Shown here one piece after another: positions 11,655-25,890 of a stretch of 32,336 bases of DNA. The notes under the pieces are model-generated. The model made no database searches and had not been told where the DNA came from. It worked only from the letters and a program-made list of their open reading frames with translations. Position 1 is the first letter of the stretch. Each line of letters starts with the position of its first letter. This stretch comes from a virus: IMG/VR virus record IMGVR_UViG_3300034071_002143, positions 1-32,336 of that record, one strand, 5' to 3'. Both the position numbers and the translations under genes were made by a program.

Positions 11655-12218
11655 TTATATAATAGCTGTTATTTGATGGTCAAATATTCTATATAAAACC
11701 TGTCCGTCTACCTCAAACTCATATTCGCTTTCAGGAGTGAAACTTACTATGTCCCCTTTTGATACTCCATTCTTAATCAAATAATCGTTTGGGTAAATCA
11801 TCTCGCCCATCAATGGCTCGTTTATAATGTTTTTATAAAGATAAGATTCTTTTTTTGGAATCGGCTTAACAAAACAATATTTATTGTAGGCTATCCAATC
11901 TTCTCCCTTTTTATATAAAAAGAATTGGTCTGGCTCAATTAAAAACACATTGTCCCTAAAAAAGCTTTTACCGCTCTTTTTATTTCCCTTCATGTCATTA
12001 TAGTATTTAAACGTATTATGATGCACAAGAAGCGTATCTCCTTCTGAAATATCGCCTTTATACCACAAAGGAGTAGATATGACCTTTGCTTGTCTGTTTG
12101 AATATTTATGGTCTTCTTCTGAAGTATTTACAATAAATTCAATTCCACCTATGTTTTTAACATTGGAATATCTATGCCCACCTATAGGCTCACAAATAAA
12201 ATAAAATGGAGACTTCAT
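11655..12218 (-). CDS. Tandem GroES-like (co-chaperonin fold) protein
   Basis: This 187-residue protein reads as two GroES-like beta-barrel halves. The first (residues about 25-100) has the pattern AKVISTP...ISEGDTLLVHH. The second (about 115-187) contains GVSKGDIVSFTPESEYEFEV followed by DGQVLYRIFDHQITAI, which closely follows the GroES pattern of a GD(I/V)V core, then a DG turn, then a terminal strand ending in an Asp-Ile-type motif. A co-chaperonin would cap a GroEL ring during folding. It sits immediately upstream of the terminase genes and is separate from the groES at 18.4 kb. It could act on the host or phage GroEL, or be a structural protein reusing the fold. The fold is moderately supported; the role is inference. 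Confidence 0.6.
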   Translation of the reverse strand: MKSPFYFICEPIGGHRYSNVKNIGGIEFIVNTSEEDHKYSNRQAKVISTPLWYKGDISEGDTLLVHHNTFKYYNDMKGNKKSGKSFFRDNVFLIEPDQFFLYKKGEDWIAYNKYCFVKPIPKKESYLYKNIINEPLMGEMIYPNDYLIKNGVSKGDIVSFTPESEYEFEVDGQVLYRIFDHQITAII

Positions 12219-13504: not shown

Positions 13505-13535
13505 CAAAAATAATAAACTTTTTGTTTTAATGCAA
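13505..13535 (-). promoter_or_regulatory. Promoter of the leftward head/packaging operon
   Basis: Read leftward, TTG (13533-13535) is followed after 20 nt by TATTTTTG (13505-13512), matching the Bacteroidota TTG-N19/20-TAnnTTTG pattern. The first ATG follows at 13481, giving a leader of roughly 20 nt. It would drive the fibre, GroES-like, terminase and portal genes. Confidence 0.7.
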
Positions 13536-13539
13536 TATT

Positions 13540-13792
13540 TTTTTTATGGACACACCGATAGCTTTATACTGTTGAAATTAGGATGACAACAGCAATTGGC
13601 TTTCCATTAAACCAACGAATAAAGATACTATTCCAAGAAGCCTGTTATACTAATTTGTATAAATACAAATCCGTTCTTTTTTTAAGTCGTTCGGCTACGA
13701 CACCTCAATCTATGGATTAATATTTTTTTTACCTTTCGGCATTTCAACAGTATATGTTCCTGCTAAGGAGAGCATATAAGAAGCAAAAATAT
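13540..13792 (-). ncRNA. Candidate structured RNA with a 14-bp closing stem
   Basis: No gene fits here. Positions 13565-13578 and 13741-13754 form a perfect 14-bp inverted repeat (TATACTGTTGAAAT). Inside, on the leftward strand, are more stems: a CC-GAAA-GG hairpin, GTCGT/ACGAC, ATTTGTA/TACAAAT, GAATA/TATTC, and AACAG/CTGTT with GGCTT/AAGCC. Just before it, TATATG/CATATA encloses TCC/GGA. A TATTTTTG -7 match at 13784-13791 (no TTG at -33) could start transcription just before the first hairpin. It may be an independent RNA of roughly 230 nt or part of a longer transcript. It lacks an obvious U-tract terminator. Strand and ends are inference; the stems are visible. Confidence 0.45.
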
Positions 13793-13882: not shown

Positions 13883-13957
13883 AAAAAACACGCTTCAGAT
13901 TATCGACCTAATGTTCTTTTCCATTAGTTCCAGCTCGATAAACTTGGCGTGTTTTTT
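13883..13957 (-). terminator. Long three-part hairpin with flanking A/T tracts (terminator or switch)
   Basis: Three nested stems are visible: an 11-bp outer stem (13883-13893 with 13947-13957, AAAAAACACGC/GCGTGTTTTTT), a 7-bp TTATCGA/TCGATAA stem (13900-13906 with 13935-13941), and a CTAATG/CATTAG stem (13908-13913 with 13922-13927). Both arms end in T-runs, so it could terminate transcription in either direction. Copies of two of its segments lie at 14003-14019 and could pair with it instead. Confidence 0.65.
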
Positions 13958-14022
13958 ACAAAATATATCTATGTAAGATTTTGCAATACAAACAATCTAT
14001 CAAGCTGGAAGTCGATAAATCA
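13883..14022 (-). ncRNA. Candidate attenuator/switch RNA downstream of a consensus promoter
   Basis: A leftward transcript from the promoter at 14028-14057 would start near 14020 and run about 138 nt to the terminator-like hairpin at 13883-13957. Near its 5' end are the complement of AGCTGGAA (14003-14010) and a TTTATCGA segment (14012-14019 reversed). The first can pair with AGCTGGAA inside the hairpin (complement of 13928-13935). The second duplicates the hairpin's own 5' arm and can compete for TCGATAA. This gives two mutually exclusive folds, the hallmark of an attenuator or riboswitch-type element. No ligand or protein is suggested by the sequence. Confidence 0.45.
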
Positions 14023-14027
14023 TAATG

Positions 14028-14057
14028 CAAAAATAATAGTTTTTTTTAAAAATGCAA
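14028..14057 (-). promoter_or_regulatory. Consensus leftward promoter of the 13.5-14 kb RNA region
   Basis: Read leftward, TTTG (TTG at 14055-14057) is followed after exactly 19 nt by TATTTTTG (14028-14035). Both elements and the spacing match the Bacteroidota consensus. No gene starts within 500 nt downstream, so the promoter points to a noncoding transcript or a very long leader for the head operon. Confidence 0.65.
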
Positions 14058-14076
14058 ATTTTTTTTATTTTTTTTT

Positions 14077-14104
14077 AAAAAGCCCCCGATTCTCATCGAA
14101 GGCT
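14077..14104 (-). terminator. Terminator of the lysis operon or a short RNA
   Basis: On the leftward RNA AGCCTTCGAT pairs with ATCGGGGGCT as a 10-bp stem with a 4-nt loop, followed by a U-run. Two pairs are G-U, and the plus strand would have C-A mismatches there, so the fold is specific to leftward transcripts. It ends transcription about 105 nt after the stop codon of the membrane protein gene. Confidence 0.8.
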
Positions 14105-14150
14105 AATTACACTAACAAATATTATTTACAAACAAATACAAAAACTGACG

Positions 14151-14180
14151 CAAATATATAGCGTTTTTAACTAAATACAA
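14151..14180 (-). promoter_or_regulatory. Consensus leftward promoter in front of a terminator
   Basis: Read leftward, TTG (14178-14180) is followed after exactly 19 nt by TATATTTG (14151-14158). Transcription would start near 14144 and meet the terminator at 14104-14077, giving an RNA of roughly 65-70 nt unless read-through occurs. Confidence 0.65.
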
Positions 14181-14208
14181 AATATTTTTTTTAAAAAATT
14201 TATTTTAA

Positions 14209-14835
14209 TTATTTAAACCGAGAGTAAAAAGCAAAGCTGAGAGCCGAGCCTATTAATATCCAGCCCCAAAAAGGCATACGATATTCTACTATATTATTTA
14301 TAGTTGTTTTCTCTTTTTTTTCAAGCCTATAAGACCTTACAAGGCTATCCAAGTATTTATTTACTATATGCAAAGAATCGCAAATAAACGTATTAGTGAG
14401 CGTATTATTTACAAGTTTCGTTTTTACTTCGCTACGTTTCCCTTTGGCTACTTTATTATCTACTATTTGTACTTTGCCCGCACTATCGCACTCCAACTGA
14501 ATTACCTGAGTGAGCGTGTCCATTTTAATTATTGTATCAAATACTTTAACTTTTGTTTCAATAGTAGTAGTATCGTGAATAGTATTAGTTTCAGTAATAG
14601 TTGTAGTAATTTTAGGACAACATCCCGATATTATCAACAAAAAAAGTGAATAAAAAAAGTACTTAGGAAATGTTTTTGCTATAAAATAAACCAAAATAAA
14701 ACCTAAAATGCCAAATAAAATAGACACTATGTTAAAATCTATTTTGTTTGAATATGAATCTGCTACTGCTAAAACAGACGTACTAAAAAACAAAGGAATA
14801 GTAAGTAGCCACAATATTTGAGGTTTAAATTTCAT
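14209..14835 (-). CDS. Membrane protein of the lysis module, spanin-like candidate
   Basis: This is a 208-residue envelope protein. There is a hydrophobic N-terminal segment (residues 8-25), a second and third around 38-58 and 59-71, and a C-terminal membrane helix (about 188-203). Between them lies a Thr-rich, periplasmic-type stretch after an ISGCCPK motif at about 70, which resembles an internal lipobox. Thr/Asp-rich segments after a Cys occur in short lipoproteins of Bacteroidota phage lysis cassettes. It is the last gene after lysozyme (3-nt gap), where spanins are found. The outer-membrane disruption role is inference; a generic membrane protein is the alternative. Confidence 0.55.
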   Translation of the reverse strand: MKFKPQILWLLTIPLFFSTSVLAVADSYSNKIDFNIVSILFGILGFILVYFIAKTFPKYFFYSLFLLIISGCCPKITTTITETNTIHDTTTIETKVKVFDTIIKMDTLTQVIQLECDSAGKVQIVDNKVAKGKRSEVKTKLVNNTLTNTFICDSLHIVNKYLDSLVRSYRLEKKEKTTINNIVEYRMPFWGWILIGSALSFAFYSRFK

Positions 14836-17821: not shown

Positions 17822-18280
17822 ATGGAAAAAAAACATGATTATTTAAAGTATTGGAAAGTTATAAGACATTGGACTGAATCCAAATACGACATCACAACAC
17901 TAGAACTAGAATTTCTACTCTACGTTTACTCCGAAAAAATAATATCCCAAAAAGACGTGCGCCTATTTTCTAGGACAGGAAACTTCTCAGACTACTCCTT
18001 TGAAAAACTAAAAGAAAGAAAACTACTCCTAGATATGTTCCCCGAAATAAAAGAAAAATATAAAACGTATAAATTATCCTATAAAGCGTCCAGAATAATA
18101 GACGTATTATATAGGAAACTTCACGGAGAAGAAATATGCGTCTTCCCGCAAAAGAATAAACTATTCCTTAAAAATATATCCTCTAAGGATAAAATATATC
18201 AGTCGCTTATTATTAGAATGAATGAAGAATACAAGTCCAAAAAAGCTCGTAATTCCACATTAGACGACGAAATTAATTAA
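17822..18280 (+). CDS. Winged-helix-like regulator candidate
   Basis: This 152-residue protein starts at the ATG at 17822; an open frame continues upstream to 17522 but runs antisense through two leftward genes. Residues about 14-100 contain a helical layout (TTLELEFLLYVYSEKIISQK, then a helix with LKERKLLL, then basic strands) that resembles MarR-type winged helix proteins, with a Lys/Arg-rich C-terminus. It is the only rightward gene in the left block, lies behind a divergent promoter shared with the tail/lysis operon, and ends overlapping the groES stop tail to tail. A regulator of the late operon fits this position. The family assignment is tentative. Confidence 0.55.
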   Translation: MEKKHDYLKYWKVIRHWTESKYDITTLELEFLLYVYSEKIISQKDVRLFSRTGNFSDYSFEKLKERKLLLDMFPEIKEKYKTYKLSYKASRIIDVLYRKLHGEEICVFPQKNKLFLKNISSKDKIYQSLIIRMNEEYKSKKARNSTLDDEIN

Positions 18281-18530
18281 CTAAGACAACGTCTCTCTCT
18301 CTTATTACCATAACGGTCTCCCCCTCGATAATCATACCGAAGGATTGACCCTTGTCGTAATAAATCTTATCACCACTCTTAATCTCTTTTACATCACCAC
18401 CTACAGAATCTACCACCCCACAGCTATATCTGAACATACTCTTGTCCTTCTCGGTCAAAAGTAACCCACCCGAAATAGTTATGTCCTCCTTAATCTCTTT
18501 AATTAATATGTATGTTCCTATTGCTCTCAT
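18273..18530 (-). CDS. groES: Phage co-chaperonin GroES
   Basis: This 85-residue protein starts at the ATG at 18530, five nt after the groEL stop; an upstream extension to 18608 would overlap groEL. It has the GroES fold pattern: MRAIGTYILIKEIKE, a mobile-loop segment with ISGGLLLTEK (compare SAGGIVL in host GroES), a GVVDSVGGDVKEIKSGDKIYY core and a terminal strand with VIRERDVVLV. It would cap the phage GroEL ring and close the folding chamber. The gene follows groEL, the reverse of the usual bacterial groES-groEL order. Its end overlaps the convergent gene at 17822-18280 by 8 nt. Confidence 0.85.
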   Translation of the reverse strand: MRAIGTYILIKEIKEDITISGGLLLTEKDKSMFRYSCGVVDSVGGDVKEIKSGDKIYYDKGQSFGMIIEGETVMVIRERDVVLVN

Positions 18531-18535
18531 GTTAT

Positions 18536-20089
18536 TTATTTTTTGCTTACTACAGCGTTTGCACTTAATATTGTTACCGCTACACTTACAGAATTCTCTA
18601 TTGCACATCTTACTACTTTAAAAGGATCTATAATACCCATCTCAATTAAATTACCATAACTCATCGTCTTTATATCATAACCACAACCCATAGCCTCACT
18701 CCCATTATAAACATCCTCATATTTTAACCCTCTATTAGAAAGCATAGTTATAATAGGCTTCTTTAACCCATTTACCATTATCTCCGAAGCAATAGCACTC
18801 TCCTTACTATCCACCCCAAGTTCAGACTTAGTTATCTCAGATAAACTCTTACCACCACCCCATATTACTCCCTCCTGCATAGCACTCCTTACAGCACAAA
18901 CACTATCATCAACCCTGTCATAAAGCTCCTTTTGCTCCATCTCAGTAAATCCACCTACATAAATTACACCTATTCTGCCCTTTAAATTGCCAATCCTACT
19001 CGAAACATACTCCTTTTCACCCTTGTTTTTAAGCAAATTTACATTCTCCTCAAGCTCAGAAATACGATTGTTTACCTTCTCAATATCCTTATTGCCTCCT
19101 ACAAGAACCGTATTATTAGCCCCTACAATCACTTTTTCTACTTTCCCTAAGTCTTTTAACGTCAATCTACTCATGTCCTCCCCTGTCTTCTCACTTACAT
19201 ACAACGACCCTACACTTAAAGCTATATCCTCCATCACCTCCTGTTGCCTAAAACCACTCATAGGTGGACTTACTACACAACACTTCAAATTACCCTTCAT
19301 TACATTGGCAGCCAATGTATTTAAAACAGGTACACTACAAGGAGCTATAATCAATAACTTTAACCCCTTAGGTACTACTTCATCCAAAATACTCTCTAAT
19401 TGACTCAAATGTGTTATCTCCATATCACTCGTCAATACATAAACGTCCTTCATAATGCACTCATCCCTCCTCCTATCATTGACAAAAATATTACTCCTAT
19501 AACCCCTGTCAAATTTAAACCCATTAGTAACCTCATAGTAACTCTCTACCCCTTGACCCATATTTACCCCTACATATCCACCATCAACCTCCTTATAAGC
19601 CCCAAGAACCAAATCGGAAATAGCACTATCATTATTGCTACTTATCATGGCAACATGACCCAACATACCCTCACTTGGAATACTCCGACCCTTTAATATA
19701 TCCAATACCTTATCCTTCATCTCCGTAAACTTCCTTAACACCTCTACCCTATTAACATCCTCAGTTATCAGCCTCTCACCCTGCTCAATAAAACCACCAG
19801 CAAGAACAATACTCGTACTCGTACCATCTCCCGCATCCATTACAGTCTTCTCACTCGCAGCCTTCAATAACCTACATCCCAATCCCTCTAATCCCTCCAA
19901 ATTTACACTCCTACTCACACTCACACCGTCTTTAGTTACAGCCATGCCCCCTACATAACCATCATCCTCTATTACTACTACATTTCCACTTGCTCCCAAA
20001 GTACTCCCAACTACTTCACATAGCTTCTTAGCACCCTTTACTAATTCTCCCCGTGCATCCGCACCAAAACTGATATTCTTAATTTGCAT
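18536..20089 (-). CDS. groEL: Phage chaperonin GroEL
   Basis: This 517-residue chaperonin starts at the ATG at 20089 (MQIKNISFGADAR); the frame extends to 20110 but that would place the -7 box almost at the start codon. The ATP-binding motif GDGTST is at about 87-92. VDDSVCAVRSAMQEG carries the catalytic Asp equivalent of E. coli D398. GYDIKTMSYGNLIEMGIIDP and the following helix match the C-terminal equatorial domain. It is about 30 residues shorter than host GroEL, with a compact apical domain and no Gly-Gly-Met tail. Together with groES it forms a phage folding machine, probably for capsid or other virion proteins; the client is inference. Confidence 0.92.
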   Translation of the reverse strand: MQIKNISFGADARGELVKGAKKLCEVVGSTLGASGNVVVIEDDGYVGGMAVTKDGVSVSRSVNLEGLEGLGCRLLKAASEKTVMDAGDGTSTSIVLAGGFIEQGERLITEDVNRVEVLRKFTEMKDKVLDILKGRSIPSEGMLGHVAMISSNNDSAISDLVLGAYKEVDGGYVGVNMGQGVESYYEVTNGFKFDRGYRSNIFVNDRRRDECIMKDVYVLTSDMEITHLSQLESILDEVVPKGLKLLIIAPCSVPVLNTLAANVMKGNLKCCVVSPPMSGFRQQEVMEDIALSVGSLYVSEKTGEDMSRLTLKDLGKVEKVIVGANNTVLVGGNKDIEKVNNRISELEENVNLLKNKGEKEYVSSRIGNLKGRIGVIYVGGFTEMEQKELYDRVDDSVCAVRSAMQEGVIWGGGKSLSEITKSELGVDSKESAIASEIMVNGLKKPIITMLSNRGLKYEDVYNGSEAMGCGYDIKTMSYGNLIEMGIIDPFKVVRCAIENSVSVAVTILSANAVVSKK

Positions 20090-20107
20090 ACGATATAATA
20101 TTTTTGG

Positions 20108-20136
20108 CAAAATTAATAAACTTTATTATACCACAA
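20108..20136 (-). promoter_or_regulatory. groEL-groES promoter
   Basis: Read leftward, TTG (20134-20136) is followed after 18 nt by TAATTTTG (20108-20115), a full TAnnTTTG match. The groEL ATG at 20089 lies 18 nt downstream. It shares the 87-nt intergenic gap with the divergent promoter at 20150. Confidence 0.65.
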
Positions 20137-25737: not shown

Positions 25738-25890
25738 ATGTATTTTATTGATTACCTAAGCAAAAAACACAACTACAATAAAAAACGTCAATACTTCGAT
25801 GACTGGGGCAAAGCCATCGAATGGGGGCTAAAAAATATTGACAATTTTAGTATAGATATGCTCTTCTGTACGCCAAACAAATCTAATTAA
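25738..25890 (+). CDS. Small protein of 50 residues
   Basis: This frame begins at the ATG at 25738, 12 nt after the lipoprotein stop, with an A/T-rich leader as used elsewhere here. It reads MYFIDYLSKKHNYNKKRQYF then a Trp-containing helix (DDWGKAIEWGLKNID). It is basic at the N-terminus and compact, with no membrane segment. The family is not recognised. Position in a run of closely spaced early genes supports it being real. Confidence 0.55.
   Translation: MYFIDYLSKKHNYNKKRQYFDDWGKAIEWGLKNIDNFSIDMLFCTPNKSN

Follow-up and report, generated by a model that had tools for sequence, protein, structure and literature searches.

A predicted autonomous small-RNA unit with two competing folds at the lysis/head module junction of an elemovirus-like phage

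Introduction

Among described RNAs, the nearest in kind to the locus analysed here is IsrK of prophage Gifsy-1 (an analogy for which no sequence relation is claimed). The IsrK RNA ends at a terminator of its own, also occurs as a read-through isoform and can adopt alternative structures (PMC4825925). Our locus is similar in that the phage small RNA it would encode is predicted to start and stop at signals of its own, to fold in alternative ways and possibly to have a read-through isoform. It differs in its surroundings: the target of IsrK is the translation of a neighbouring ORF with an upstream antQ, whereas no comparable ORF lies beside the RNA described here.

Three other systems share some of these characteristics. 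In the leader attenuators of amino-acid operons, a terminator and an exclusive alternative fold share one segment (S2 in the present RNA), and a small ORF lies over the 5′ segment; here, however, the downstream operon has its own promoter, the first gene lies ~400 bp beyond the terminator and the element is not conserved with the operon. Phage morons are likewise self-contained promoter-terminator units found at module junctions and absent from relatives, but they usually code for protein, and the composition of the gap that holds our locus is not clearly distinct. The phi29 packaging RNA (RF00044) is also a three-way-junction phage RNA near packaging genes; unlike it, the present RNA has no family match, and relatives with the same terminase lack it.

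To our knowledge, small RNAs from Bacteroidota phages have hardly been described. If transcribed, the locus would amount to an RNA gene that is compact, complete in itself and carried where two modules meet; it would also offer a good setting in which to study kinetic control of folding, with timing deciding both termination and the final shape of the RNA. Should it act in cis, phage late genes would be preceded by an RNA control point of an unusual kind. We lean, with slightly better than even confidence, towards an autonomous, moron-like small-RNA unit of the phage with a metastable terminator fold, a reading in which we infer transcription, termination, folding order and function.

Source phage and promoter

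The window (the whole stretch of DNA analysed) is a virus record of 32,336 bases. Its terminase shares 69% identity with that of MW202828, an uncultured podovirus genome of 60.9 kb, and 45% with those of Flavobacterium elemoviruses; PHROG matches in the window are to terminase, portal, endolysin, GroEL and a GroES-like protein. These identities and matches mark the window as a genome fragment from an elemovirus-like podovirus of Bacteroidota. The phage GroEL and GroES are accompanied by a separate cpn10-like protein adjoining the terminase (18273-20110 and 11655-12218, minus strand), an arrangement shared with elemoviruses. The structural genes lie on the minus strand, and the predicted RNA unit has the lysis module on one side and the head module on the other.

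The first-pass annotation described a perfect leftward TTG-N19-TAnnTTTG promoter reading into gene-free DNA, and this holds: the promoter of the RNA (P2, TTG-N19-TATTTTTG, 14028-14057, minus strand) matches the Bacteroidota sigma-A type consensus perfectly, and the RNA region contains no minus-strand ORF of at least 60 aa. The window contains 7 instances of the TTG-N19-TATTTTTG pattern, where shuffles predict 1.15. In Flavobacterium psychrophilum the -7 box sits at -12 to -5 (PMC9723704), which places the start of the RNA at 14023. The predicted RNA is ~141 nt long (13883-14023, minus strand), with its start deduced from the promoter and its end in a U tract.

Terminator and competing folds

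The 3′ part of the RNA is a 75-nt terminator hairpin (13957-13883) that folds alone at -25.2 kcal/mol. Its outer stem, AAAAAACACGC/GCGTGTTTTTT (also given as AAAAAACACGC/GCGUGUUUUUU), is a perfect 11-bp inverted repeat (I11) followed by T7CT5, or U7CU5 in the RNA: the 5′ arm, AAAAAACACGC, lies at 13947-13957 and the 3′ arm at 13883-13893 (both minus strand), and the U tract TTTTTTTCTTTTT runs on to ~13875. A perfect inverted repeat of 11 nt is rare in shuffles (0.0025).

Inside this hairpin and ahead of it are the segments that can exchange partners, all on the minus strand. S1 (13994-14019), in the 5′ part, can fold on itself early as a hairpin (H0) or pair with S2 over 17 bp and with S3 over 10 bp. 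S2 (13927-13944) pairs with S3 in the terminator form and with S1 in the alternative form; S3 (13898-13907) pairs with S2 in the terminator form and with the 5′ end of S1 in the alternative. Between them is a small hairpin, CUAAUG-GAAAAGAA-CAUUAG (13908-13927). At the level of the letters, TTCCAGCT (in 14010-13994) is complementary to AGCTGGAA (in 13944-13927), and TTTATCGA is present in both the 5′ and 3′ parts of the RNA, although an 8-nt direct repeat alone is not rare in shuffles (0.16). The duplicated and complementary 5′ segments and the 75-nt terminator-like hairpin are thus as the first-pass annotation had them.

The best fold of the whole RNA is not the terminator but a three-way-junction rod (S1b:S2, 17 bp; S1a:S3, 10 bp; the small hairpin as third arm) at -44.4 kcal/mol, with a z of -5.6 to -5.9 and none of 200 shuffles as good. 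The terminator-closed form reaches -36.3 kcal/mol; the pairs that close it appear in the nested ensemble with a probability of ~8e-6, and masking S1 in folding yields the terminator form. Pairing between the 5′ and 3′ parts gains -9.7 kcal/mol, and when the 5′ part was shuffled 1000 times with the terminator half kept, the mean gain was -0.4 and the best -1.9, so that no shuffle came near the observed value and the competition between folds is real. In the nested model, then, folding the leftward strand yields the two exclusive forms, one of them breaking the terminator, that had been proposed. The exclusion need not be absolute in that a pseudoknot combining S1:S2 with the terminator stem is possible by a rough estimate of -30 to -36 kcal/mol. 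Judged from sequence, the switch-like anatomy (promoter, terminator and competing 5′ segment) is confirmed as both real and unusual.

The opposite strand folds more weakly (-32.3 kcal/mol, z -4.7), and the minus-strand RNA has five G-U pairs; both favour a function at the RNA level in the minus direction. In a coarse minus-strand fold scan, windows overlapping the RNA rank third and seventh of 537. The strongest fold in that scan is at 25743-25882 (minus strand, -38.5 kcal/mol), where the plus strand may carry a short ORF from ~25739.

Order of folding

H0 is formed by nt 60, and the rod is the best fold from ~90-95 nt made, before the 3′ arm of the terminator exists. A path search gives a barrier from H0 to the rod of up to 11.4 kcal/mol (an upper bound), and reversal from the rod to the terminator costs ~33 kcal/mol. 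With the usual prefactors, we estimate that leaving H0 for the rod would take seconds or more, slower than synthesis of the last 40 nt at 20-50 nt/s. This slow exit means that H0 may hold S1 until the terminator forms. Termination may therefore come first, with the released RNA relaxing to the rod later; whether or not the pseudoknot forms, the rod should be its final state.

The proposed unit, set at the lysis/head junction, would be transcribed from its own promoter P2 into a structured RNA of ~141 nt and would end at an intrinsic terminator of its own. During synthesis S1 would close on itself first; S2 would then pair with S3, the terminator stem would form and RNA polymerase would stop. 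Once freed, the RNA would slowly refold into the more stable three-way-junction rod, whose paired 5′ and 3′ regions would protect it. Action in trans is probable, as a regulatory or sequestering RNA on some target.

The head operon and its predicted promoter

The first gene downstream is at 13481-13254, ~400 bp from the terminator, and a promoter of its own lies in between: P3 (TTG-N20-TATTTTTG, 13505-13535, minus strand) is near-consensus and closely resembles P2 (direct repeat D5). Its predicted start is 13500, which puts the first ATG (13481) 19 nt downstream; 5′ UTRs in F. psychrophilum have a median length of 24 nt (PMC9723704). With a near-consensus promoter of its own, the head operon does not need read-through from P2. 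An attenuator's controlled gene should depend on such read-through, and here the predicted P3 directly precedes the first gene.

Relatives point the same way. By gene order, the corresponding genes in MW202828 and elemoA are adjacent, without a comparable gap, which implies that the head operon runs elsewhere without this RNA. The suggestion that read-through times late (head) gene expression is therefore not supported: a predicted promoter precedes the operon, and relatives have a homologous head operon and lack the RNA.

Distribution and origin

The 141 nt recur unchanged in two other metagenome contigs, L082 and L160, and are thus not an assembly error. The window and these contigs represent one phage, being 99.9% identical overall and 100% identical in the gap. 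No similar sequence or fold was found with blastn, nhmmer or a covariance model in ~150 relative contigs, collected through homologous terminase or cpn10-like genes, many of which are short so that some may not reach the region. On the switch hypothesis of the first-pass annotation, the alternative pairing should recur in relatives; across these ~150 it does not stand before the same operon, the element being absent and its sole other copies identical. Among phages and plasmids, blastn with the gap returned short AT-rich chance matches only. Exact and degenerate patterns searched in viral and genome contigs, with a covariance-model screen of the matched loci, recovered only the same phage and chance matches. 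In Rfam 15 no family exceeded its gathering threshold, the best sub-threshold matches lying outside the RNA or far below the cut-off, and the covariance model of the phi29-type packaging RNA (RF00044) gave no match, as it gave none in the control genomes either.

The proteins flanking the gap match only L082, L160 and L159, a contig that shares the lysis gene and lacks the RNA. Over its last 424 nt (14199-14622) this lysis-cassette gene, which lies upstream of the RNA, matches L159 at 98% identity, L159 being otherwise a different phage with other genes beyond the shared one; identity stops ~10 nt past the stop codon. By sequence, this similarity reflects a recent exchange whose limit lies shortly after the stop codon, which makes the gap a mosaic module junction. 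Mosaic junctions are a usual site of extra transcription units. The composition of the gap shows no clear deviation. As in a moron, the unit has, by sequence match, its own promoter and its own intrinsic terminator, and gene order in MW202828 and elemoA indicates that relatives lack the insertion at this position.

Competing explanations

The autonomous small RNA is supported because the promoter is perfect, the terminator is followed by a U tract, the fold is strong and strand-biased, and the two folds exclude each other beyond chance; the slow exit from H0, the absence of the element in relatives, its place at a module junction and the head operon's own promoter add to this. Counting against it, the search for targets within the window found a longest perfect complement of 11 nt, as expected by chance, and the RNA has no homologues. 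The 5′ part also competes with the terminator more strongly than a plain small RNA would need. In a cis attenuator, the kind of model behind the first-pass annotation, the RNA would be a leader, the rod its antiterminator, and a signal would choose between termination and read-through into the head/packaging operon. The RNA does combine an intrinsic terminator with a rival fold that uses one of the same segments, the 5′ segment disrupts the terminator far beyond chance, structural genes come next on the same strand, a ribosome or factor sitting on S1 would restore the terminator (as masking does), and leader-peptide attenuation has been inferred in flavobacteria (PMC9723704). The distance of ~400 bp with P3 within it, the relatives that have the same head operon without the element, and a pseudoknot that may make the exclusion less than absolute lead us to regard this as unlikely. 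A more specific version holds that the RNA starts at an AUG and that ribosome occupancy of a leaderless 7-codon ORF (MIYRLPA-stop, 14000-14023, minus strand), which covers S1, sets the fold. The predicted start does fall on AUG, the ORF ends inside S1, and S1 masking gives the terminator form. This ORF is speculative, since it depends on a start at 14023, and chance can easily put an ATG at any one position; leaderless mRNAs make up just 5.5% in F. psychrophilum (PMC9723704), MIYRLPA shows no amino-acid logic, and every objection to cis models applies, so that we think this version very improbable.

A rather different explanation dispenses with a functional transcript: the inverted repeat would serve replication, recombination or packaging as DNA, or be the remnant of an inverted duplication. 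That the opposite strand also beats shuffles (-32.3 kcal/mol) is consistent with this, as are the other inverted repeats and palindrome in the gap and its character as a mosaic junction. A perfect promoter and a U-tracted terminator that share one direction argue against it, and so does the strand preference conferred by G-U pairs; we consider it somewhat less likely even than the cis attenuator. A further reading is a timed two-stage device, in which the metastable fold terminates its own transcription and slow refolding, possibly gated by the leaderless 7-codon ORF, gives a rod with a second function or late-gene read-through, but such a device seems improbable. A mimic of a type II-C tracrRNA or repeat is one more candidate, a speculative one. 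The autonomous small RNA remains the reading we favour over the cis attenuator, the DNA-level element and the leader-peptide attenuator.

Other features near the locus

Two further features lie close to the RNA. On its upstream side, at 14074-14180 on the minus strand, another perfect promoter (14180-14151) is followed within ~70 nt by a strong hairpin with a GAGA loop and U5. Either this hairpin terminates the lysis operon, or promoter and hairpin would make up another RNA unit, shorter than the one described here. On its downstream side, the noncoding gap contains a perfect 14-bp inverted repeat, TATACTGTTGAAAT/ATTTCAACAGTATA, at 13565-13578 and 13741-13754 (162 nt apart), and a palindrome, TTTGTATAAATACAAA, near 13653-13668; the repeat and the palindrome are possible operator or recombination sites.
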